Below, piece after piece: positions 959 to 24,309 of a DNA stretch of 24,309 nucleotides (position 1 is the first letter of the stretch; each line of letters starts with the position of its first letter). Source of the DNA: a virus. The translations under genes and the position numbers were made by a program. The stretch covers positions 1 through 24,309 of the IMG/VR virus record IMGVR_UViG_3300007351_000054. One strand, 5' to 3'. Below the pieces are notes generated by a model. That model searched no databases and was not told the DNA's origin. It saw only the letters and a program-made list of their open reading frames with translations.

Positions 959-1551
959 CAGTCGCTCGCCCCCGTATCCGTCCAGGCCCCGCGCACGGTG
1001 TCGCAGGACCAGATCAGGGTTCCGGCCGCGTTTTTCATGCGGGTGCAGATCATTTTGCTTCCCACCACGGCAGGGGAATCAATACAGTCATTGGCGTCGA
1101 GTGTTGTGCCGTCCAGATCAAACGCCTCTCCGGTAGGAGGCCCGACCTCGATGATCTGCGCCTCCTCGACAATGATCACGACACGCGCCCCGTTGGTCAT
1201 GGCAAAGAGCGTGAGATCCACCTCTTCGGCTGCGCCCTGGTTGGTGATGGTGGTCCCCCGGCATTCATCAGCGGTGAGGACCGCGTCGGCAGTTTTTTCA
1301 ACGCGCGTAGCGGCCATGGATACGGACCCTGGGAACGTCATGTTGCCCGAGGCGTCTGAGGTGGCGCCTGGGATGGGCTCCAGTTTTTTCGAAGTCGCAT
1401 TCCATCTCCAGAGAGACCCGTCGACCACTCCAGTTTGATTGATGGTCGGATCCTTCTCTTTGGGATACTGCATCTGGCTATGAGCCACAGTGTTGCAGCT
1501 CAAAATTGCCAGGATGCAAGCCGCTGCGATAAAGGGTATTTTTCTTTTCAT
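958..1551 (-). CDS. Hypothetical secreted protein paired with the beta-helix gene
   Basis: A 197-aa protein that I do not recognise. The first 25 residues form a clear signal peptide: Met-Lys-Arg-Lys, then a hydrophobic core (AAACILAILS), then a small-residue cleavage region before QMQYP. The mature part is Thr/Ala/Asp-rich. It carries a stretch around residues 40-75 (SLWRWNATSKKLEPIPGA, then a Gly-Asn-Met-Thr-Phe-Pro segment) that resembles the short beta repeats of phage fibre and head-fibre proteins. Four cysteines lie in the mature part, at about residues 97, 157, 169 and 183. The ribosome binding site GAGGAG lies 7 nt before the ATG. The stop overlaps the start of the beta-helix gene, suggesting that the two products are made together. 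Role unknown; an exported or surface-associated accessory is my best guess. Confidence 0.7.
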   Translation of the reverse strand: MKRKIPFIAAACILAILSCNTVAHSQMQYPKEKDPTINQTGVVDGSLWRWNATSKKLEPIPGATSDASGNMTFPGSVSMAATRVEKTADAVLTADECRGTTITNQGAAEEVDLTLFAMTNGARVVIIVEEAQIIEVGPPTGEAFDLDGTTLDANDCIDSPAVVGSKMICTRMKNAAGTLIWSCDTVRGAWTDTGASD

Positions 1552-4693: not shown

Positions 4694-6198
4694 TATTCAT
4701 CACCCCCTTCTTCTTTTTTCTGGCCGCCCAACTTGAGCATGTTGGAGACCCAAGCGTCATCTTCCTCGGCCAGTTTTTTCTCGGTTTTGGCCTCCACGTT
4801 CAGATCCTCTCCGGACTTGCCTCCGGCAAACCCGGTACCCAGGATATTTGTGGTCATGCCCATGCCTTCCCACTCGGCGATCTCGGCATGCACGGCAGCC
4901 TGGTAGGCCGCTTCATCCAAGGCACCCTCTTTGATGAAGGATGCCGATGGTACACATTTGCGCACCCTCTCATGCATCTCTTCCGGGACGTCACAGGCTG
5001 CCAGGGCTTTGGTCCACACCCTGTCTACAGCTGCATCGATTCGCACCTTTTTTTCCTGCTCGGCGCGGATGTAGTCGGTTTTCTCCAACTTCAGGATTCG
5101 GGCATCCTGGTCCTTGATCATCTTGTCCCTTTCCTGAAGTTCACCCTTCAGACCCGAGATCTGGGCTTCGAAGCCTTGTTGCTTGGCATCGAAGGAGGCA
5201 CGCAGATCTCGTTCGACCTCCATCCGGAACTGAGTGAACATCTCCGGGTTTTCGGTCTTAAACTCTGCCAATGTCTTGAACATCGCGCTCTCGACCTCCT
5301 TGTTTCTGGCCCCTCGGGCCGTGCTCGTTGTTTTGCCCGCCGTCCTCACGTCCTCCACGATAAAGTCGATGACCTCGTCAAAGTTCATCACCTTATCCGC
5401 CAGGCCGATGTCCACGGCGTGCTGGCCCATGTAACAGGCCGCCTCGGTCCCTTTCACGGTCTGCACATTCAGGCCGCGATTTCTTGCTGCGGTATCCGCG
5501 AAGAGGCCGTAAATGTCCTTCAGCTCCTTCATCGCGGATTCTTGTGCTTCTTTCGAAAGAGGAGAGTGCGGGTCGAAATCGACCTTTCTCTCTCCCACAA
5601 ACAGGTTCGTGACTTTGACACCCATCTTCTTGTTGAATTCGGACTGGTCTACGTGGACCATCCGAACTCCAATGGAACCCACTCCTCCCGTTCTCGGAAG
5701 GAAGACCTGCTTGGCACTCGATGCGAGCAGGTAGCCGGCCGAATACGCCATCTCGTTCACATAGGCGTAGACCGGTTTCTTGGAATTGTGGATTTCATCG
5801 CCCAAGTCGAAGATGCCTGCAGACGATCCACCGTGGCTGTCGATGTCGAGCAGGATCGCGTCTACCTTTGAGTCGCCTTCCGCCCGATGGAAATCCTCCC
5901 GAATGCCTTCGTAGGAACGCAGCCCGGAGAGTGCCTCCATACCCGCCCTTCGATGCACGAGACTCCCGATGATGGGAATCACCGCAATCTCGACGCGGCC
6001 GGTGGTTACCGGAGCACGTGCTTTGGCCATTTCAGAGGCCTGTATCTCACCGCCTTCGAGACCGATCCGCTCTCCCAGCACGCGCACGATGACGTCCAGC
6101 TTCTGAGGCGAGATCATCAAGGGAGTGTTGAAGACCTGGAGCGCTATGTGCGGCAGGAATCTCGATCCGCTTTTTATTTCCACATCTTCGTTGGGCAT
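4693..6198 (-). CDS. Prohead protease, S49 (SppA/lambda gpC-like), with scaffold-like C-terminus
   Basis: This enzyme would cleave scaffold and head proteins during capsid maturation. Residues about 65-265 form the S49 peptidase domain. DAILLDIDSHGGSSAG is the strand and oxyanion region, Ser153 in AYSAGYLLAS is the likely nucleophile, and Lys205 in GERKVDFDP the likely general base, the Ser-Lys dyad of SppA and phage gpC proteins. From about 290 to 390 the sequence is charged and helical, with a probable coiled coil. As in lambda C/Nu3, this part may act as a fused internal scaffold. I chose the ATG at 6198 because GGGAGGA lies 5 nt upstream; an in-frame TTG at 6222 would add eight residues but has no such site. 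The product is 501 aa. The stop overlaps the decoration gene start. Confidence 0.88.
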   Translation of the reverse strand: MPNEDVEIKSGSRFLPHIALQVFNTPLMISPQKLDVIVRVLGERIGLEGGEIQASEMAKARAPVTTGRVEIAVIPIIGSLVHRRAGMEALSGLRSYEGIREDFHRAEGDSKVDAILLDIDSHGGSSAGIFDLGDEIHNSKKPVYAYVNEMAYSAGYLLASSAKQVFLPRTGGVGSIGVRMVHVDQSEFNKKMGVKVTNLFVGERKVDFDPHSPLSKEAQESAMKELKDIYGLFADTAARNRGLNVQTVKGTEAACYMGQHAVDIGLADKVMNFDEVIDFIVEDVRTAGKTTSTARGARNKEVESAMFKTLAEFKTENPEMFTQFRMEVERDLRASFDAKQQGFEAQISGLKGELQERDKMIKDQDARILKLEKTDYIRAEQEKKVRIDAAVDRVWTKALAACDVPEEMHERVRKCVPSASFIKEGALDEAAYQAAVHAEIAEWEGMGMTTNILGTGFAGGKSGEDLNVEAKTEKKLAEEDDAWVSNMLKLGGQKKEEGGDE

Positions 6199-6220
6199 CT
6201 TTGTCCTCCCTTCACCGGGC

Positions 6221-6266
6221 AAAGCAAAAGGGTATCTGAGTCTGGGTCCCAGATACCCTTCGCTTT
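6221..6266 (-). other. Strong intergenic hairpin between portal and protease genes
   Basis: The 11-bp perfect arms AAGGGTATCTG (6228-6238) and CAGATACCCTT (6250-6260) are flanked by a second matching pair, AAAGC (6221-6225) and GCTTT (6262-6266), for about 16 bp of stem around an 11-nt loop. No run of T follows on either strand, so it is not a classical intrinsic terminator. It sits in the message between portal stop and protease start, where it could protect or stop exonucleases, or set relative expression. The strand is assigned from the surrounding transcription. Confidence 0.7.
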
Positions 6267-6334
6267 GTTGCCTTGCCCCTCAGGTTGGCCTACCCTCGGA
6301 ACAAACCCGTTCTGCCGGATACAACTTGTATGTT

Positions 6335-7921
6335 CTAACCGCTACCCTTTTTCTGGGGTTTTGGTTTGGGAGACTGCTTCTTTGTTTTCGATGGCTCAGC
6401 CTCGGTCAATTCCTGGTGCTGCTCCTGGTCCACTGCCAGGATGGTCTTGGGATACTTCTTGTCTTCGGTCGCCTTCTGCAGGCGAAGCCTCTTGTATCCC
6501 CTGAATCCCATCTTACGCATGAGCACTTCGTTCGGGATGCCGGCCGTGTCATTCAGCGATCCATGCTTCACTCCCAGAAGCGCCTTAGCCTGTCCTTCGG
6601 TATTTTCGATTTCCGAGATTGGAAAAGTAATATCCAAGCACCGCTCAGGCTTCTTCTTGCGGACCTTGAACACGGGCTCCTGATTTTTGTCGAAGTCGAC
6701 CGCCTCTTCAACATCGAAAGTCTTGGGGAATTCGGCGATCTCCCCTTTAAGGAAGAAGATATTTCCCCAGAAGTCATACCGAAGCCAACGTTCGAAGTAC
6801 ACCATCTCGTCGCTTATGCGGTCGCTCATGGGCCCCCGGGAAGCTTTCACGCTGGCGAAGGTTCCCTTGGACTCTCCGGTGGTGACGTCCTGCGCCTCAT
6901 TGAGGCCTGAGGAGATCATCTGCATCACGTCCGAGTCCCCGCCGCTGATCTTGGGAAGCTGTGGCATTTTCGCCTCAACCTCCATGTTGGGGCCGATAAC
7001 GAGTGTGCCGCCTGGAGTCTTGGCTGCCGCGATGCCGGTCTTTGCTCGTTCCTCGTCGGTCAGGTTGAGCCAGGTGATCCAGGACTTCACGTCCGTGAAT
7101 TTGACCACCCACACGTAAGAGCCGGAGGACTTCTTATGGTCGATCTCGTACATCTTCAGGGTCTCCCAATGGTTCAGCCATTGGAGAATCGTCTGGAGAT
7201 GCGAGGTGCTCCTCTTCGTGATGAGTCCCAAATCCCAGGAGACGATGAAACGGTAGAATCCGCCAACAGACCGGAATGACCTTTTGCGGGTTCGGCTTGG
7301 ATCCAGCATCTTGGCGCTGAAGCCATCCTGAGCCTTCGCCACCCGATAAAGTTCAGGGTAGCGGGCAAGGTAAATGGAGGGGATGTGCTCCTCGATGTCG
7401 TTGTCGGTGTCCTTGATGCAGTAAACGAGGGGCATCCTGGTCTTTCGCGGATGGAAGATGATTCCGTGCTCAGGCTCTCCCTCGATCACATCCGGATCGA
7501 TAAAATCCACTTCGACGAATCCGTCGTCATGACATGTGAAGCACAAATGCAGTTCACCACCGATGAAGCCCCTTGTAACAAACTTGGGCCAGTAGTCGTA
7601 AAGCCGATTGCGGTAATCCGTCTCGGTCTCGTCTATGGCATCGTCGATCTCAGTGATGTCCGATGCAGTTGCAAAGCCATTGCCGCAGATGCGGCCTACA
7701 AGACCCCTGGTGGAGGTGTTGACGTGCGGGTTGGAATGAAACTTGCCCCAGATGTGGGCGTGAAGGGTCTGCCTGTCTATGGGAGTGGCTTCCTTAGATG
7801 AGCCAGCCGAAAGAGGAAACCCGTCAGAGTCCCGTTGCTGCTCGGAACCAGAGGGTGCATACTGCCAGGGAACTGAAAACTGGCGGTCGCGGAAATTGTT
7901 TTCGTCGGCTATTTGATTCAT
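6335..7921 (-). CDS. Portal protein
   Basis: A 528-aa protein between the terminase and the head protease, the usual place and size of the dodecameric portal that forms the DNA entry vertex. It has no signal peptide. The central part is mixed alpha/beta. A block PGGTLVIGPNMEVEA, then PQLPKISGGDSDVMQMIS, then VTTGESKGTFASVKASRG, matches the pattern of portal proteins around the stem and wing (a Gly-rich turn followed by a Ser/Thr-rich stretch and long helices). The C-terminus is Lys/Pro-rich and disordered. I use the ATG at 7921. An upstream in-frame TTG at 7984 lies inside a probable promoter -35 box, so that extension is unlikely. No strong ribosome binding site is seen before 7921. The family is inferred from position and pattern. 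Confidence 0.75.
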   Translation of the reverse strand: MNQIADENNFRDRQFSVPWQYAPSGSEQQRDSDGFPLSAGSSKEATPIDRQTLHAHIWGKFHSNPHVNTSTRGLVGRICGNGFATASDITEIDDAIDETETDYRNRLYDYWPKFVTRGFIGGELHLCFTCHDDGFVEVDFIDPDVIEGEPEHGIIFHPRKTRMPLVYCIKDTDNDIEEHIPSIYLARYPELYRVAKAQDGFSAKMLDPSRTRKRSFRSVGGFYRFIVSWDLGLITKRSTSHLQTILQWLNHWETLKMYEIDHKKSSGSYVWVVKFTDVKSWITWLNLTDEERAKTGIAAAKTPGGTLVIGPNMEVEAKMPQLPKISGGDSDVMQMISSGLNEAQDVTTGESKGTFASVKASRGPMSDRISDEMVYFERWLRYDFWGNIFFLKGEIAEFPKTFDVEEAVDFDKNQEPVFKVRKKKPERCLDITFPISEIENTEGQAKALLGVKHGSLNDTAGIPNEVLMRKMGFRGYKRLRLQKATEDKKYPKTILAVDQEQHQELTEAEPSKTKKQSPKPKPQKKGSG

Positions 7922-7955
7922 CTCGTGTACACAAGATATTGGGGTATGAAAAGGA

Positions 7956-7984
7956 GAGATAACAAGTAAGATGTGCGTTGTCAA
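7956..7984 (-). promoter_or_regulatory. Probable sigma-70-type promoter for the portal-capsid genes
   Basis: On the minus strand a perfect TTGACA (7984-7979) is followed after 17 nt by TATCTC (7961-7956), a partial -10 match. Transcription would start near 7949, about 28 nt before the portal ATG. It lies in an AT-rich gap and would give the head genes a start independent of the terminase gene. Confidence 0.5.
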
Positions 7985-8124
7985 GCAAAAAAGTGGGGTA
8001 TAAGCATAAAAAAGTGAATAGTATGCAATATATCTTTCTTAATATGCACATTGATCTTTTTATTTATATATTGATTTTGAATGATAAATAATTTATTCGA
8101 TTTGCTGTAAACAATCTAAATCAA
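7985..8124. other. AT-rich intergenic spacer between terminase and portal genes
   Basis: This 140-bp stretch is far richer in A and T than any neighbouring gene, with runs such as TTTTTATTTATATATTGATT on the plus strand. No gene is supported. A short reading frame across it lacks a binding site and has poor composition. It may end or insulate the terminase transcript and supply an UP-like element for the promoter at 7956-7984. No convincing terminator stem is visible. Confidence 0.5.
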
Positions 8125-9945
8125 TCATTTATAATTCCCGCGAAGCCCCTGAGCTGGAAAGAATGACCCAAAGTCGATCTTGCCCTTGCGTTCTCGGAAG
8201 TCGAGCGGGGACAGGCTCCTTCCGGTGTATAAACACCCTCCTATCACGTAAATGGAATCGTCCTGCACGCCTTCCTTACGCTTCTTCTCCGGGGATCCGT
8301 ACCATTTCGCGTCCGGATCATAGTCGAAGTTTTCAGCCTCTTCCCTCAAGATGTCCTGGTCTCCCTTGCTGCCCTTGATTGCCAAAGGTGGCGCCTTTAA
8401 CCGGCCATCCCGCAGAGCCAGATAGAGCTCGGTGAACATGGCATGCTGCCGGTCGAAGGTCGGCTGCCAGAACTCGGGCTTGATGTCCCGATCGGTGAGC
8501 CAGGTCTCGAGATCCCACGCGCCCCATCGCTCTGACCCGAATACGTCAATTTCGTAAAGCGTATGAATCAGAGACAACTCGGTCTTTATGTCTTCCAGGG
8601 AACTGGACTCGATGACCTTGAGGTGCAAAAGGAGGTAGATGTATGGCAGGGTCTCCCCCTCTTTGGCTACGATCAGCTTGCCCTTGCTCCCGGGAAGTCC
8701 CTTGGCAATGGCTCCTACGACGGTCCGTGCATTGGTCTTGGTTTTCATTGGGTCGGCGCGATCGAGTGCGGCGATAATCGCCCAATGCGTGTTGAATAGA
8801 TCAGTCAGTCTTCCCAAGCTGTCGATGGGAGCTGCGGCGGGGATCCCGTTTTCCTGTAGGGCATAGTAATCGCTGACATGCCACAGCCTGGATTCGATTT
8901 CCTGAATGCTGGCAGTGGTCGTGACTCCCATGGATTCGGCCTTGCCGGGCCCCATGCTTATCTCTATCCCCTCTTTCAGTTTGTTCCTCTTCAGAAGCAG
9001 TTCCATCATCTGCGTGTGCGAGGTCTGATCATGATCAATCCCGAGATACTGTGTGGCTTCCACCATCTCAGACGTGAAGAGTTTGGATCCCCCGGCGGAC
9101 CAAAGGTTCCTGAAGTAGCGGTCGAAATCCGCGGGCAGCCACTTGGCCTTGTAGGAATCCAACTGCTGTTGTGTGTTTCTAGGATGCCAGTAATCGCGGT
9201 AGTCTGCGTCCTTGCTGAATCGGTAGGAAAAGAAGAGAGTGGGGTCGTCCCGCTTCGTCCAGGTATCAAAAAGCCTATAGAGAATATGGTCCTTGCTCGA
9301 TACGGTGGAATCAAGGATCCCTAGAGCGTTGGGGGTATTTCTCATTGATCCATCGAGCTGAGTGAAATACTTGGGATTCTTCATGTCGAAGATTTCAGAG
9401 AAGGTGTACCCGGTAATGTTTGACAGAATACCCGTGGACGTAGAGATAGGGCGGATTGAAGACTGGAGCACACCCCGGCTGTCCCTGAATTCGATTGCCT
9501 TCTCCTTAACGCTGTCGATCCCGATCTCTGAAAGGAGCTTGGGCGAATTCAAGATGGTTTTTGTCATTTCGTCGTAATGGACGAACTTGATCTGGTCTTT
9601 GGAGTTGGCGCCACAGACGATCAGTTGGCGCGGAAAGCAGAAGAACTTCCAAAGCTGAATGAGAACGGCTCCAACCGATTTTCCTTCACCTCGTTGCCAA
9701 CAGAAAACTATTAGACGGTAGACGAATTCCCCGTTCTCCATTCGGAGAGCTTCGCAAAAGACCTCCTTTTGGTGCTCCCAGAACTGCCTGTAGGAACGGC
9801 CGGTCCCAGGGTATGGGTCATTCGGAAGGTCCCCGATCTGAACCCAGGCTGGCACAGTTGATCCAGGAGGATAAATCTGCACGCGGACATTTTCATCTGC
9901 CCACATGCAGAAGCCTTCGCCGCCATTTCGATATTCGGGTTTCAT
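8125..9945 (-). CDS. Terminase large subunit
   Basis: The 606-aa motor and nuclease that packages phage DNA into proheads. A Walker A-like motif, QRGEGKS, lies at residues 84-90 after a hydrophobic strand (YRLIVFCW). A Walker B-like segment, ITGYTFSEIFDM, lies near 177-188. The strand LIVCGANSKDQ at 108-117 fits motif Ia of terminase ATPases. The C-terminal half should be the RNase H-like nuclease: IIAALDRADP (390-399) supplies the first acidic strand, and further acidic residues follow around 476-500 and 555-575. The length is normal for a large terminase. No clear Shine-Dalgarno site precedes the ATG, which lies 10 nt after the stop of the small membrane-protein gene. A small terminase subunit is not recognised nearby. 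Confidence 0.9.
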   Translation of the reverse strand: MKPEYRNGGEGFCMWADENVRVQIYPPGSTVPAWVQIGDLPNDPYPGTGRSYRQFWEHQKEVFCEALRMENGEFVYRLIVFCWQRGEGKSVGAVLIQLWKFFCFPRQLIVCGANSKDQIKFVHYDEMTKTILNSPKLLSEIGIDSVKEKAIEFRDSRGVLQSSIRPISTSTGILSNITGYTFSEIFDMKNPKYFTQLDGSMRNTPNALGILDSTVSSKDHILYRLFDTWTKRDDPTLFFSYRFSKDADYRDYWHPRNTQQQLDSYKAKWLPADFDRYFRNLWSAGGSKLFTSEMVEATQYLGIDHDQTSHTQMMELLLKRNKLKEGIEISMGPGKAESMGVTTTASIQEIESRLWHVSDYYALQENGIPAAAPIDSLGRLTDLFNTHWAIIAALDRADPMKTKTNARTVVGAIAKGLPGSKGKLIVAKEGETLPYIYLLLHLKVIESSSLEDIKTELSLIHTLYEIDVFGSERWGAWDLETWLTDRDIKPEFWQPTFDRQHAMFTELYLALRDGRLKAPPLAIKGSKGDQDILREEAENFDYDPDAKWYGSPEKKRKEGVQDDSIYVIGGCLYTGRSLSPLDFRERKGKIDFGSFFPAQGLRGNYK

Positions 9946-14939: not shown

Positions 14940-15027
14940 TGGCGGAAGGTACAGGATTTGAACCTGTGCAGGTGTTACCCTGGCCTCGGATTAGCAATCC
15001 GGCACCATTCCTCTCGGTCAACCTTCC
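14940..15027 (-). tRNA. tRNA-Ser (anticodon GCU)
   Basis: An 88-nt tRNA. The acceptor strands GGAAGGT and ACCTTCC pair fully, the discriminator is G, and CCA is encoded. The anticodon loop TTGCTAA gives GCU, reading AGC and AGU. A long variable arm and a T-loop with TTCAAAT fit a serine tRNA. The top of the anticodon stem has a C-A mismatch (27:43). G73 is the expected serine discriminator. Confidence 0.93.
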
Positions 15028-15032
15028 CGTAT

Positions 15033-15116
15033 TGGAGGAGGGCAGAGGAGTCGAACCTCTTGAGCTTTTACACTCTACGGTTTTCAGGACCGCTTGCCAC
15101 CGTTGGCATACCCTCC
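15033..15116 (-). tRNA. tRNA-Ser (anticodon UGA), with C33
   Basis: An 84-nt tRNA. The acceptor GGAGGGT pairs with GCCCTCC (one T-G at the base), and CCA is encoded. The stem GCGGT/ACCGT encloses the loop CCTGAAA, which sets the anticodon as UGA, reading UCN-type serine codons. The long variable arm (GAG...CTC) and the T-arm AGAGG-TTCGACT-CCTCT support serine. Two oddities: position 33 is C instead of the near-universal U, and the discriminator is U rather than G. Only 5 nt separate it from the second serine tRNA. Confidence 0.88.
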
Positions 15117-19293: not shown

Positions 19294-19439
19294 GACTTTT
19301 CGGGCGGGCTATGCAAAATCTGGATTTTATAGGGAGAAAATTGTGGCGAGTACCCGATTGCCCTGGGAGGGGTGGGGATGCTTTAGGCGAATGGAGGGGG
19401 GGGTATGTTATTGATATTGTTAGATATAATGATAGAACC

Positions 19440-19870
19440 GGATAATAACCTATTATCCAGTCCCATGGTATGATGATTTATCATACCGTCTCAAGTGAGA
19501 CATGTCTCATGATACAGTGAGACACAAGTGGGACAGTCCATTTGACCGGCTGGTATCCCGACACATTGCAATTCTGCAATGTCCTGTATTGCAATAATGC
19601 AATGCAGATATGCAATGCCCTGTAATACATTGGAATAACGATAGCTTATACGAGTGTGTCAAACCTGCCTCAGTGCCCTTGTCCTTGCCTTGCCAGAATA
19701 CCTTGGAATAACAAGCTATTGTAGGTGCTATGGTAAAAAGACCACAGGATATGTGGTAAAAACGCCACAAAAGAGAGCTTTACGCCACATGTTGTGCTAG
19801 CTATGCACGTCTCAAATCCCTTGTGTTATCGCATTGTTGTGCGATACATTCACCATATGTGCATATGTGG
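19440..19870. repeat. Array of at least ten different short inverted repeats
   Basis: Perfect or near-perfect palindromes follow one another: GGATAATA-acc-TATTATCC (19440-19458), GGTATGAT-gattt-ATCATACC (19467-19487), GTCTCA-ag-TGAGAC (19488-19501), TGTCTCA/TGAGACA (19503-19524), CATTGCA-attc-TGCAATG (19564-19581), ATTGCA-ataa-TGCAAT (19588-19603), TGTGG/CCACA (19752-19769), GTGC-tagctat-GCAC (19794-19808), TATCGCA-ttgttg-TGCGATA (19827-19846), and CATATG-tg-CATATG (19854-19867). Arms are 4-8 bp and loops 2-8 nt. The TGAGAC and TGCAAT families each recur. Operators for several repressors, an origin, or a compact hairpin array are all possible. Confidence 0.85.
19624..19712. repeat. Near-identical 16-bp direct repeat pair
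   Basis: AATACATTGGAATAAC (19624-19639) and AATACCTTGGAATAAC (19697-19712) differ at one base and lie 73 bp apart, seven helical turns. ATAGCTT and AAGCTAT just after each copy are inverted relative to one another, so the pair could loop. Two TGGTAAAAA motifs (19731 and 19754) follow. Confidence 0.7.
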
Positions 19871-20163: not shown

Positions 20164-21228
20164 ATGGAGCAGAGGCAGACATTGGCAGAAGTACACGCAG
20201 AGATTGAGACGAAACAGACCGAGCTTCACGACTACGTAACATCCAAACTAGCCGCACTGGTAGACCGAAGATCATATCTCACTGACACCTTGACCGGAAT
20301 GGAGACAGAACACTCTTCCCTAATCCATGATAGTTCCATGGATACTGAAGACTCGCTCATTGAATTGACAATCCGGTTTTCAGACAATCCTTATCTGCTC
20401 TTGACTGTGAACGATGTACGTGCATACTGCAAGACCGTTTCAAAAAGGGCAATGCTCAAAGGCGAACAAAAACGGAATGGACTTCTTTCCTTGAACGAAA
20501 CGGATTCGGACGGTGAAACTCACGTCGATATCCCTTCACCTATCGGCATGGTTGGCAGATACGATACGCTGAAGTCAATCATCCTTCACCTTGCACGCAA
20601 ACAAGACGGCCAACCAAGACAAGGAGTAAACCGTAACCATCTGCGCGTTTTCGTTCTGTCCTACCTTTCCGGACATTCTCAAGTTGACATTGCTTCAAAG
20701 ATCAATGTCTCGGTCGATACGGTCAACCGACTGCGCAAAAGGATTGACTCGCTTATCCTGTCCATGCCTTTGAGGGACAATGTTGGCAGGGGATTCGAGG
20801 ATTCACTGAGATGGACACAAGGGAATGGTAGCCCTTCTCCATGGGCAACTGTCCAGGATGAAAACCCCAGTGAACTGATCTCCGTTTCTCCCGATGGATA
20901 CAGGCCGATGCAAGACAATCGACCGGACTACAGAGAATCAAAGCACTATCCCTTGCACCCTCTGAATCCTCCTATTCCTTCCAAGGTTCCATCTTCATTC
21001 CCTGTCAAGGGAACTGACAAGGGTATTGCCAAGGAAGCTCGATACGGCATGGTCTATAACCCCTTCCGGTCACATGCGGCTACCAGTGAGCATACGGCCA
21101 TGTGGCCGTCCAAAGACAAGCCCCGTAAGCCGGTCAACCTGGATGCTTTCACGGACTATCAAACATCCTGGCATGAACCAGAAGCGATTGAATACGTCTC
21201 TGAAGAGCATTTCAAGTCAATCCTGTAA
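20164..21228 (+). CDS. Sigma-70-like transcription factor
   Basis: A 354-aa protein. Residues 1-70 are helical with a coiled-coil feel. Residues 75-125 resemble sigma region 2 and its exit: LLLTVNDVRAYCKTVSKRAML, then LLSLNETDSDGETHVDIP, like the Leu-Asp-acidic linker between sigma regions 2 and 4. Residues 158-195 are region 4-like: NHLRVFVLSYLSGHSQVDIA, then SKINVSVDTVNRLRKRI, a helix-turn-helix. The remaining 150 residues are Pro/Ser/Lys-rich and not recognised. It would direct polymerase to phage promoters or act as a regulator. AAGGGAG precedes the ATG by 7 nt. A terminator follows. The resemblance is by pattern; a transposase- or RNA-polymerase-independent DNA-binding role is the alternative. 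Confidence 0.65.
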   Translation: MEQRQTLAEVHAEIETKQTELHDYVTSKLAALVDRRSYLTDTLTGMETEHSSLIHDSSMDTEDSLIELTIRFSDNPYLLLTVNDVRAYCKTVSKRAMLKGEQKRNGLLSLNETDSDGETHVDIPSPIGMVGRYDTLKSIILHLARKQDGQPRQGVNRNHLRVFVLSYLSGHSQVDIASKINVSVDTVNRLRKRIDSLILSMPLRDNVGRGFEDSLRWTQGNGSPSPWATVQDENPSELISVSPDGYRPMQDNRPDYRESKHYPLHPLNPPIPSKVPSSFPVKGTDKGIAKEARYGMVYNPFRSHAATSEHTAMWPSKDKPRKPVNLDAFTDYQTSWHEPEAIEYVSEEHFKSIL

Positions 21229-21245: not shown

Positions 21246-21277
21246 AACCGGGTAGCCTTAGACTACCCGGTTTTTTT
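21246..21277 (+). terminator. Rho-independent terminator after the sigma-like gene
   Basis: The stem AACCGGGTAG (21246-21255) and CTACCCGGTT (21263-21272) around a 7-nt loop is followed by a run of seven T (21271-21277). It is a textbook intrinsic terminator, 18 nt after the stop codon. Confidence 0.93.
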
Positions 21278-21347
21278 ATGCTCCTTGCATTTTGGTCGCG
21301 GTTTTCCATCGGTCAAAGACTCTATAGCTTAGAGGTTGGAAGAAAGA

Positions 21348-21527
21348 ATGAAGAGAAAGGAGAGAGAAAGATTGAATAAGAAGTCCCTTTACAAAACTGC
21401 CGTATGGCATGGGGAATATGTTTCCCTTTTGAAGTATTTCGAAAAGGGGGACTATTTCCATGTCAAAACCCAGTCAGGTGATATTTACGGCATTCCTAGC
21501 CATGAAATGACTGGGTTTTGCCTTTAA
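21348..21527 (+). CDS. Small hypothetical protein with beta-barrel-like core (59 or 51 aa)
   Basis: The core LYKTAVWHGEYVSLLKYFEKGD, then YFHVKTQSGDIYGIPSHEM, reads like a small SH3- or KOW-type barrel. Two starts compete. The ATG at 21348 has GAGG 12 nt before it and gives 59 aa. The TTG at 21372 has AAAGGAG 9 nt before it and gives 51 aa, and fits better with the purine-rich leader. It lies between a terminator and the giant RNA candidate, and its 3' third carries a 13-bp inverted repeat (see 21464-21520). The function is unknown. Confidence 0.55.
   Translation: MKRKERERLNKKSLYKTAVWHGEYVSLLKYFEKGDYFHVKTQSGDIYGIPSHEMTGFCL
21464..21520 (+). other. 13-bp perfect inverted repeat inside the small gene
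   Basis: CAAAACCCAGTCA (21464-21476) is exactly matched by TGACTGGGTTTTG (21508-21520). Both arms are coding (Lys-Thr-Gln-Ser and Met-Thr-Gly-Phe). The right arm is followed by CCTTTAA and then the RNA region. It could be a terminator-like or processing hairpin for this short transcript, or the 5' boundary of the RNA. Confidence 0.7.
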
Positions 21528-21529
21528 CC

Positions 21530-22610
21530 CCCGATAGCCCTGGCGCTTGGGCTTGAATCTGTGCGCGGTGTCTGCCGGTCTCGACCATACTGAGACCGGA
21601 TGAATGGAGCCCGCGAGCTTGACGGTTCGCGGCCTGCATTCAGTCTCGATACCGGTTAATCCCGGTCTTGACTGAGGACCAAAGTCCTTGTACTCGGGCT
21701 GTCTGACGGCTGGCCATCCGCCCCGTTCTTGGCAATCCATATGGGTTCAAGGCGAGCTGCCTGCGAGTCAGCGCAGGGTAGTTCTGGGAGCTGCCGGTTA
21801 GTCCCGGGCTCGATCCAACCAGAACGAGCATGAAGGGATCTGCGACCTGGATGAATCCCGCCGGTCATGAATCCAGGCCAAGGCGCGTTGACTGGTCGTC
21901 GAACACCACGACGTAAACCAAGGTGGGGGCTTGCTTCGGCCTGACAAAATGGAGTGCGCGGGGTTCCGCGGTCTATCAGGTGCCCTCTGGGCTTAAAATG
22001 CCTGACTGCCATCCCTACCATGCGCAACGGGTAGCTTTTGCAGACTCCCCGGTCTTGCATGGGTGCGATTTCTAGGTCTGCATAGTCCAAACCTCACGGA
22101 CGATAAACAAGAGGCGGCCCGTGCTTCGGGCGAAAGTCCAGCTGTACCTGGCAAGGGTGGTTCTCTCTGCCAGCAAAATCTGTGAAACAACCCCCGGGCC
22201 CACCGGGTAATGTGCGGACGTGGATCTGTTCTTGGATCTGCGGCCATAGCACCTGAGATGGTGCGCTGAATAGGAAAATATCGACTCGTGAGCTGAAGGG
22301 AGAGTATTCCGGAAAATCTCTGGAAAATGCTCCGACCTTGGCCAGCTTGGGCGGGAGAACGAGCGCGATCCTCAGAAATTCTGGGAAAAAACCTGGATGC
22401 TGTGATCGAGTCGAGACGATACTGGACGGCGTGCTGTGACCTTGTGTTGTGGTTGCTGGGAAAAGAACGGTGAAACGACCCTCCGAACTCCAAGGGGGGA
22501 GAGTCTTGGCTCATGGATACGCTGCAAATGGTGTCGAATGCCGACGCTTGAACAGAGCCATGGAAAAGATTCTTCCCCTTTCTTCTTCAGGCTCGTTGAG
22601 TCTGAATAAA
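21530..22610 (+). ncRNA. Candidate giant structured non-coding RNA (about 1.08 kb)
   Basis: No believable gene lies here, yet it folds into a chain of stems. Examples: CCGGTCTC/GAGACCGG (21575-21599); TGAATG/CATTCA enclosing CCGCGA/TCGCGG (21601-21642); TCAGTC/GACTGA (21640-21675); AGGAC-CAAA-GTCCT (21675-21688); GTTCTGG/CCAGAAC enclosing GAGC/GCTC (21781-21825); CCTGGAT/ATCCAGG (21846-21877); TCAGG/CCTGA around GCCC-tct-GGGC (21976-22005); TGCAGAC/GTCTGCA (22039-22082); GCCCG/CGGGC (22117-22131); CTGGC/GCCAG (22148-22173); CCCGG/CCGGG (22193-22207); GCACC/GGTGC (22249-22264); TTCAGGCTC-gtt-GAGTCTGAA (22586-22606). U-G pairs in AATCC/GGGTT (21734-21747), TTGCA/TGCGA and the last stem fit only plus-strand RNA. 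Size, ornateness and a phage setting recall GOLLD and ROOL RNAs; class membership is unproven and the ends are approximate. Confidence 0.65.
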
Positions 22611-22627
22611 ACCTGGAGGAAAAGGCA

Positions 22628-22768
22628 ATGGAGAAAAGCGTGCTTGAATATGTGATCCGCGCCTGTGAGAAAGAACTGGGGAAAAAGGGAATCACTGACG
22701 ATTACCGCAATCGTCTGTTCATCCTGAAAGAGAAAGCCCAGGAAATGCTCAAGCTGGATTTCATGTAG
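22628..22768 (+). CDS. 46-aa helical protein after the RNA region
   Basis: A frame of 46 codons (MEKSVLEYVIRACEKELGKK, then GITDDYRNRLFILKEKA, then QEMLKLDF). It is entirely polar-helical, with heptad-like Leu/Ile spacing. GGAGG lies 8 nt before the ATG. Composition and binding site make it credible despite its size. A hairpin GCCCGC-cactga-GCGGGC (22786-22803) follows the stop. It could be a small regulator or an RNA partner; no family is recognised. Confidence 0.6.
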   Translation: MEKSVLEYVIRACEKELGKKGITDDYRNRLFILKEKAQEMLKLDFM

Positions 22769-22841
22769 CCATTTGCCACATCTCTGCCCGCCACTGAGCG
22801 GGCCTGAAGAAGAAAATCGGGAAAAGGAGGAACTCTGGAAA

Positions 22842-22988
22842 ATGGACATTCTGAACAATCCGGGAATTGGCGGATTGGTTGGCGTCGCGGCGGTATGCCT
22901 GCTGTCCATCGGGATCATCCTGAATGGACTGTGGCAGTACTGGAAATTCCGCAGAGGCTTGAAGAAACGGATGTATCCGCGTGGATAG
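22842..22988 (+). CDS. 48-aa single-pass membrane protein
   Basis: A frame of 48 codons. MDILNNPGIGGLVGVAAVCLLS begins it; residues 8-30 form one membrane helix, ended by Trp-Gln-Tyr-Trp. The basic tail (KFRRGLKKRMYPRG) should stay in the cytoplasm. AAAAGGAGG lies 11 nt before the ATG. An upstream in-frame start (22773) would add a poor, hairpin-encoded segment and was not used. Small membrane proteins of this form serve as holins, exclusion factors or toxins; which applies here is unknown. Confidence 0.6.
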   Translation: MDILNNPGIGGLVGVAAVCLLSIGIILNGLWQYWKFRRGLKKRMYPRG

Positions 22989-22997
22989 ACCACGATT

Positions 22998-23058
22998 GGG
23001 GAAATTCAGTATGACATTTTGTCATACCGGAAATTTCTCCACTGGTGCTCTATGCACC
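22998..23058 (+). ncRNA. Structured RNA element 1 in the parB leader
   Basis: GGGGAAATT (22998-23006) pairs with AATTTCTCC (23032-23040), enclosing the perfect hairpin GTATGAC-atttt-GTCATAC (23009-23027). After a 3-nt ACT comes GGTGC-tctat-GCACC (23044-23058). The outer stem uses one G-U pair that fits plus-strand RNA. A related outline recurs in element 2, sharing the block TTTCTCCACTGGTG. Confidence 0.6.
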
Positions 23059-23082
23059 TGTCTGCCTGTCTGTCTTTCCTCC

Positions 23083-23106
23083 CTGGTGGCCTGCCGAGGC
23101 TACCAG
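23083..23106 (+). other. Hairpin between the two RNA elements
   Basis: CTGGTGGCCT (23083-23092) and AGGCTACCAG (23097-23106) form a 10-bp stem with one G-U pair and a GCCG tetraloop. No T-run follows, so it is not an intrinsic terminator; it probably belongs to the structured leader. Confidence 0.55.
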
Positions 23107-23107
23107 C

Positions 23108-23265
23108 GGGGAAATTCCTGCACCACGGATTTAGGCTTTTACCGTGGGTACTCCGCCATGCGGTTCGAGTCCGCACGGAGCTTGCTGAGATGATCGGCCG
23201 TGAGCCTCAGCAGGTAGCCCGGCATGGTGCTGGCCTGGAATTTCTCCACTGGTGTCCTTGACACT
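23108..23265 (+). ncRNA. Structured RNA element 2, multi-branched, with a T-arm-like hairpin
   Basis: An 11-bp closing stem, GGGGAAATTCC (23108-23118) with GGAATTTCTCC (23237-23247), encloses four further stems. These are CCACGG/CCGTGG (23123-23147); CTCCG/CGGAG around TGCGG-TTCGAGT-CCGCA (23151-23180), whose inner part looks like a tRNA T-arm; TGCTGAG/CTCAGCA (23183-23212); and AGC/GCT near 23216-23231. After ACT comes GTGTC-ctt-GACAC (23252-23264). It repeats the closing stem and trailing hairpin plan of element 1. Confidence 0.65.
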
Positions 23266-23279
23266 ATCTCGGCTGGAGG

Positions 23280-23360
23280 GTGATTGTGGCTTGTCGAAGT
23301 CAGCATCGGGGAAAATCTCGAACTCCCCCGATGGTGCCTTTGGCGCCGGAAAACAATCAC
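23280..23360 (+). promoter_or_regulatory. Structured parB leader with duplicated Shine-Dalgarno segment
   Basis: GTGATTG (23280-23286) pairs with CAATCAC (23354-23360), enclosing CATCGGGG/CCCCGATG (23304-23333) and GGTGCC-ttt-GGCGCC (23333-23347). The sequence CTGGAGGGTGA occurs at 23273-23283 and again at 23360-23370. The second copy is the parB binding site, the first sits in the closing stem. Folding could therefore control parB translation. Confidence 0.5.
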
Positions 23361-23375
23361 TGGAGGGTGACTACT

Positions 23376-24309
23376 ATGGAAAGAAAGCCGAGAACAAAGA
23401 AGCAACCGGAGATCATCTCTCCGGTGGTCGTGGTGGCTGCAGCACTGGCTGAAGCCGAGAAAACCGTGGTCTCCATCGCTGACCTGCGCATGATCCCGGT
23501 CTCGAAAATCCATCTGGACCCGAATCAGCCAAGAGAGGTTTACAACAAGGCCTCGATCGCGGAGCTGGCCGAATCCATGATCAAGAACGGATTCGATGTT
23601 GGCTTTGCCATCATCGTCCGCCCTCATCCGGAAATCGCCGGGGAATTCATGGCGATTGTGGGTCACAGGAGAACATTGGCCGCGAAGGAAGCGAAGCTCT
23701 CGGAAATCCCATGCCAGATGAGGACCGATCTCTCCGAACAAGGGATCTATGAGTTGCAACTTCTGGAAAACGAGAAGCGCCAGGATCTCACCATCATGAA
23801 CAGGGTGAGGGCAACCCAGCGTGGCCTCGATCGCGGCATGACCCTGGAAAGACTGGCCGAGGTTTTCACGGTGTCAGTCGCAACGCTCCAGAAAGATCTT
23901 GAGTTGCAGTCCCTCTCGAAAGACCTCCACGTCCATGTGGATGAGGGACGGATCTCGAAAGACGTTGCCCGGAAATTGGCCACTTCCCCGCTCATAAGCG
24001 AATCCCAGCAGTTGTGGGCCTGGAACAACCTTCTGAGAGACAAGCGTACTTCGGCGGCCATGGTGGCAGCGTTGGACGCCTACCTCGACAAGCTCGCTCA
24101 GAAAGACCTGTTCGCGGATGCGAAAAAGGCCGCTGCGGACAATGGCGGGCTCATGAAGATCCGAAAGGCCTCCGTGGCCCTACAGAAAAGCATCGTCGAG
24201 TTCGAGAAAAGGAACTACCACACCGACCCCAACGTGGTGAGCGCCAGGAAAAACGAGTTGCCTACACTGAAGCAGCTTGTCGCATCCCTGGAACGAATCG
24301 CCAAGGGAA
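23376..24309 (+). CDS. parB: ParB-family partition/regulatory protein, 3' end outside the window
   Basis: The frame is open from the ATG at 23376 through 311 codons to the window edge. Residues about 38-120 form the ParB N-terminal domain: IPVSKIHLDPNQPREVY, IAELAESMIKNGF, IVRPHPEIAGEFMAIVGHRR (with GHRR in the place of the GERR motif) and LSEIPCQM. A LQLLENEKRQDLTIM segment, the ENxxR box, follows. A helix-turn-helix lies near 150-180 (GMTLERLAEVFTVSVATLQK). ParB proteins bind centromere-like sites, often with CTP, for segregation; phage copies may instead act as regulators or nucleases. No parA is visible. GGAGG lies about 10 nt before the ATG inside a structured leader. Confidence 0.88.
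   Translation, partial: MERKPRTKKQPEIISPVVVVAAALAEAEKTVVSIADLRMIPVSKIHLDPNQPREVYNKASIAELAESMIKNGFDVGFAIIVRPHPEIAGEFMAIVGHRRTLAAKEAKLSEIPCQMRTDLSEQGIYELQLLENEKRQDLTIMNRVRATQRGLDRGMTLERLAEVFTVSVATLQKDLELQSLSKDLHVHVDEGRISKDVARKLATSPLISESQQLWAWNNLLRDKRTSAAMVAALDAYLDKLAQKDLFADAKKAAADNGGLMKIRKASVALQKSIVEFEKRNYHTDPNVVSARKNELPTLKQLVASLERIAKG

Follow-up and report, generated by a model that had tools for sequence, protein, structure and literature searches.

The window, a 24.3-kb virus fragment (24,309 nucleotides), carries the genes of a tailed phage, among them those for a capsid protein, an S49 protease, a terminase and a single-strand binding protein (SSB), and the non-coding RNA described here is divergent from its late genes. 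Reading along the plus strand, a sigma-like gene is followed by an intrinsic terminator, an ORF of 59 codons, the RNA segment, two small ORFs and parB (Table 1). The terminator is the only plus-strand terminator-like site between 19200 and 24309, and it sets the sigma-like gene apart from the RNA unit. Between the RNA and parB no plus-strand terminator was detected, either in the window or in L029, the corresponding locus of a related phage. Upstream of the RNA, the window showed no clear sigma-70 promoter, and a longer form of the leader ORF (21336-21524) had no family match. Elsewhere in the window, the intergenic stretch at 19401-19600, between the late genes and the sigma-like gene, has a strong fold on either strand (z -5.1 and -6.2) and is possibly a bidirectional terminator or operator. 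Two adjacent tRNA-Ser genes, with anticodons GCT and TGA, lie among the late-strand genes at 14940-15116 on the minus strand.

Table 1. Position, strand and basis of the features of the RNA-parB region; coordinates refer to the window unless another locus is named.
Feature	Position	Strand	Basis or remark
Sigma-factor-like gene	20164..21228	+	weak Sigma70_r4_2 match; homologues with sigma matches
Intrinsic terminator after sigma-like gene	21246..21272	+	10-pair stem, then T run
Leader ORF, 59 codons, basic N-terminus	21348..21527	+	ORF list
Structured non-coding RNA, about 1.1 kb	21528..22627	+	fold, homologues, substitution pattern
Conserved core of 3' domain	22186..22300	+	two-phage model match; alignment A5
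Core hairpin 1	22219..22242	+	two-sided changes at 3 of 9 column pairs (A5)
Core hairpin 2	22249..22264	+	100% paired; two-sided changes at 3 of 5 pairs
Long 3' closing stem, 16 pairs	22492..22581	+	fold z -5.49 for 22480-22615
Terminal hairpin, 9-bp	22586..22606	+	hairpin count
Array of 25 (GG or GAG)AAAW motifs, RNA 3' domain through parB	22273..24247	+	motif positions
Small ORF, 46 codons	22628..22768	+	no family match
Small ORF, 48 codons, hydrophobic	22842..22988	+	no family match
parB, continues past window end	23376..24309	+	ParB_N Pfam match 1.5e-13
RNA copy of phage G002	L015 1628-2664	-	between short leader ORF and parB
RNA copy of phage G005	L029 4619-5776	+	between short leader ORF and parB

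A first-pass annotation, made from the sequence alone, had proposed a very large structured RNA on the plus strand at 21530-22610. We moved its boundaries slightly, so that the non-coding segment extends from 21528, after the 59-codon ORF, to about 22627. Folding of this segment gave a minimum free energy of -465.2 kcal/mol against -414.6 +/- 9.9 for 60 dinucleotide shuffles (z -5.12), none of which was as stable; on the minus strand 15 of the 60 shuffles were as stable as the native sequence (z -0.57), and a slightly shorter piece gave z -4.84 and -0.90 for the plus and minus strands, respectively. The excess of stability over shuffled sequence that the annotation had named as a check is thus present on the plus strand, and since stability exceeds that of shuffles on this strand only, the argument drawn from wobble pairs for a plus-strand RNA is supported. 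The three wobble stems on which it was built all exist, but those at 21734-21747 and 22055-22068 have just 5 bp by inspection, and that at 22586-22606 is a stem of 9 bp. The description of the region as holding over a dozen perfect stems carries no weight of its own, as a count of simple hairpins with stems of 6 bp or more, G-U pairs included, stays at chance level (15 against 12.4 +/- 2.6 in shuffles, where the maximum was 18); without G-U pairs there are 2, against 1.4 in shuffles. The folding excess is that of a global long-range fold together with the 3' part and not of the number of local stems, and in a sliding 200-nt scan most of the signal came from the segment's two ends.

Starting from the portal-like protein, we reached four related uncultured phage contigs. 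In G002 (IMGVR_UViG_3300028840_005054) a related parB is directly preceded by about 1 kb of non-coding DNA in the same orientation, and alignment of parB led to G005 (L029), where the arrangement is the same; parB is homologous in both phages, with 40% and 52% identity to the ParB of the window (alignment A3), the second value being that of G005. An ORF of 53-62 codons precedes the RNA in all three phages, with no obvious sequence similarity among the three, and dnaN, the sliding clamp gene, lies further downstream in the G005 cluster. G002 and a further contig, G003 (IMGVR_UViG_3300017963_000257), have the same late genes, shifted throughout by 4217 bases, with identical scores against G005, and were therefore counted as one phage. 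The RNA-parB end is absent from G003, which is probably explained by a contig break. The sigma-like gene, which in the window points in the same direction as the RNA, has the opposite orientation at L015 3149-4054 and L029 3227-4051, so that an inversion of this gene by itself appears to have taken place. A short hairpin, GGTGTCCTTGACAC(C), stands just upstream of parB both in the window (about 23251-23265) and in G002 (L015, about 1090-1105, minus strand) despite the divergence of the surrounding DNA.

The comparison thus covers three RNA copies, whose alignment was guided by their position. Those of G002 and G005 have blocks of 75 nt at 88% identity and of 63 nt at 83% in common, and from both of them the window copy has diverged much further. 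The 18 differences of the G002/G005 block are spread evenly over the three codon positions (5/7/6), which speaks against a coding role of the RNA segment in any frame and agrees with the view of the first-pass annotation that 21530-22610 holds no credible gene. Plus-strand stability also exceeds that of shuffles in both homologous copies (z -3.92 in G002 and -5.65 in G005). Because the minus strand of G005 is likewise unusually stable (z -6.46), the preference for one strand rests on the window, on G002 and on the core pairs described below. DNA similar to the window or G005 copy was absent from 50,697 phages and 72,556 plasmids, and 395 genomes from the phylum of L041 held neither a close capsid relative nor an RNA match. 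Matches to the core motif in viral and bacterial collections other than those in G002 and G005, most of which look like ordinary coding sequence, had no RNA similarity beyond the scanned pattern and were set aside.

To guard against circularity, a model was made from G002 and G005 alone. It found a single match in the window, at 22188-22306 on the plus strand (23.8 bits, E 2.8e-4), and one across 189 kb of other loci, of 16.6 bits and inside a coding gene. The latter, a weak match in L019 (E 0.11, with dense GGAAA motifs), was rejected, as the gene it falls in is tape-measure-like and encodes 2455 aa. In alignment A5, 6 of the 14 pairs of the two core hairpins are changed on both sides and 97.6% of cells are paired, a count that rests on three sequences; when the partner was slid by 1-3 columns as a control, there were 0-1 such changes and 36-43% of cells were paired. 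The outermost pair of the first hairpin (22218-22243) fails in the window, the second has a hexaloop UGARAU after an invariant GCCAUAGC, and G-U pairs are present in the core. Along most of the G002/G005 alignment the plus strand scores better, and the margin of folding over column shuffles is largest (z -6.9 and -8.4) at the 3' end. There a long stem is conserved between the two phages, and at the same place the window has a stem of different sequence. The 5' two thirds of the RNA are poorly alignable, their divergence being too high for a firm consensus. The proposal of a very large plus-strand structured RNA is thus supported by two homologues and by compensatory changes, and we consider it very probable that the segment represents a real and new RNA family.

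Inside the 3' domain of this RNA begins an array of short sense-strand motifs that the first-pass annotation had not seen. The fuller form of the motif is CGRGAAAWT, and its density is about 12 per kb. In the relatives the array spans 1867-106 (minus strand) in G002 and 5412-8776 (plus strand) in L029, again on the sense strand, and in the window unit 25 motifs in sense orientation stand against 2 in antisense. Motifs are missing from the initial 720-790 nt of every RNA copy, and the three 3' domains (250-380 nt) hold 7, 4 and 6 sense motifs against shuffle means of 1.65, 0.91 and 1.30. In all three phages the array extends beyond the RNA into the non-coding DNA that follows and across parB. 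In parB 7, 9 and 8 sense motifs compare with codon-shuffle means of 1.9, 3.8 and 4.4 (p <0.001, <0.001 and 0.028), p-values that are post hoc because the three phages in which the motif came to notice also served for its test. Ten other genes, dnaN and nine more, had no motif excess over codon shuffles. We relied on such shuffled controls because a gene of L019 shows that raw motif density means little in A-rich genes. The exact form CGRGAAAAT falls in the array unit in 6 of 6 cases in G002 and in 8 of 10 in G005. An unbiased ranking of 6-mers in parB placed CGAGAA first and GAAATT, GAGAAA and GGAAAA within the top seven, which is moderate support, given that unrelated top words of control genes reach similar z-scores. 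Sequences on either side of the motifs show some tendency to pair with each other, closing A-rich loops, an effect of modest size (mean stem score 8.1-8.7 against 5.8-5.9). An expectation-maximization (EM) model of the motif moved away to purine-rich sequence of a generic kind, and we dropped it.

Very large RNAs have been described from phages in only a handful of cases. The first-pass annotation had considered membership in GOLLD or ROOL and, alternatively, a new class. No Rfam family reached its gathering score in the RNA segment, the only match in the window being a tRNA elsewhere, and the best matches of Rfam 15 families to the three copies were below threshold, scattered and inconsistent between copies. 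The covariance models of GOLLD and ROOL were silent in all three, at E-values of up to 5-10, so that membership in either was not borne out and the new class is the better supported alternative. ROOL is a large phage or prophage RNA of unknown function, and GOLLD, many members of which exceed 800 nt, has a conserved 3' region and a variable 5' region; both are often found near tRNA islands (PMC12286853). The present RNA resembles ROOL in being large and phage-encoded and GOLLD also in its conserved 3' and variable 5' parts; it differs from ROOL in lacking a model match and in lying away from a tRNA island, and from GOLLD in lacking a match even at permissive E-values and in sitting in a putative early parB operon. 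Its nearest tRNA lies on the opposite strand at a distance of about 6.4 kb, and none was found in L015 or L029 (nor in L016, L017 and L019), a further difference from GOLLD, whose association with tRNAs is frequent and not universal. An abundant transcript of roughly 800 nt comes from a 1-kb orf-less segment between gp139 and gp140 of phage ICP1, away from tRNAs (PMC7567579). Compared by description, the two share the orf-less phage segment and the distance from tRNAs, but the ICP1 RNA is located at the lysis cluster. We found no report in the literature of a large RNA tied to parB.

These likenesses bear on whether the RNA acts on its own. Among the marks of GOLLD are a homo-oligomeric nanocage and induction in lysis. 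The present RNA could be a stand-alone, abundant giant RNA, processed out of the putative early operon or transcribed apart from it and perhaps self-assembling as a multimer, with a GOLLD- or ROOL-like role in trans, a serious contender that we consider nearly as likely as the cis reading set out below. Its size in an orf-less phage segment, the layout it has in common with GOLLD (PMC12286853) and the ICP1 precedent (PMC7567579) all speak for such a role, but the Rfam models of GOLLD and ROOL match none of the three copies, a terminator between RNA and parB was not detected, and the array that the RNA shares with the downstream mRNA suggests a link in cis. The same array invites an explanation at the level of DNA. 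The half-site of Noc, a member of the ParB family, is GGGAAAT, and the motif resembles it; with such units repeated beside parB, and parB itself inside the array, one could see in it a ParB-binding centromere or a replication origin, with the stems as DNA hairpins. The motifs are, however, nearly one-stranded and non-palindromic, and both the plus-strand folding excess and the G-U core pairs point to RNA. Moreover, ParB proteins have specificity residues RTAG for parS and QKKR for NBS (PMC7383237), and in our own reading of alignment A3, aligned to Caulobacter ParB, the corresponding positions are V-D-S/D-D/E, which is neither. With a one-sided array and residues that depart from both sets, a DNA-level ParB site becomes improbable. 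Least likely, in our judgement, is a GC-rich spacer stable by chance or a decayed coding sequence: the number of simple stems is within chance, and antisense frames free of stops reach 197 aa, but compensatory changes, homologues and differences spread evenly over codon positions all stand against it.

Our preferred reading, held tentatively, is that of a large structured phage RNA (1.0-1.2 kb) of a new class, which would lie at the head of an early parB operon and act in cis, and the cis mechanism itself we hold no more firmly. Antitermination RNAs of the put/nut type reduce downstream termination in cis, and the boxB hairpin is small, its loop being rich in A. The put RNA of HK022 and the nut (boxB) sites of lambda are RNA elements that act in cis in the early transcription of their phages (PMC9378689). 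The present RNA lies at the head of a gene cluster, that of parB, a position that would fit such a role, and no plus-strand terminator was detected before parB; it differs in its length of about 1.1 kb, in the dozens of motifs that run through coding sequence, and in that an N-like protein was not identified for it. A cis link is suggested by the array common to the RNA 3' domain and the downstream mRNA. The RNA would be made from the plus strand, in the leading part of an early operon that consists of the leader ORF, the RNA, the small ORFs and parB, which we infer to be transcribed early and as one unit. Its conserved 3' domain may be the platform on which an RNA-binding or polymerase-associated factor nucleates, and this factor would then proceed along the downstream mRNA on the array of GRGAAAW/A-loop hairpins, and the early parB transcript could in this way be controlled through antitermination, protection or localisation. 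That the 3' domain and the downstream mRNA, parB included, share one dense, strand-specific hairpin code, and that a phage or host factor loaded on the RNA coats or controls the whole transcript, is a more speculative idea, and we regard it as less likely than not.

The location of this RNA is well defined, since a replication and partition operon begins with it, and a linked motif code that reaches into a gene would offer a concrete handle on the role of such RNAs. If the idea of a shared hairpin code is true, the RNA would be a kilobase-scale cis-acting platform, of which, to our knowledge, there is no counterpart.
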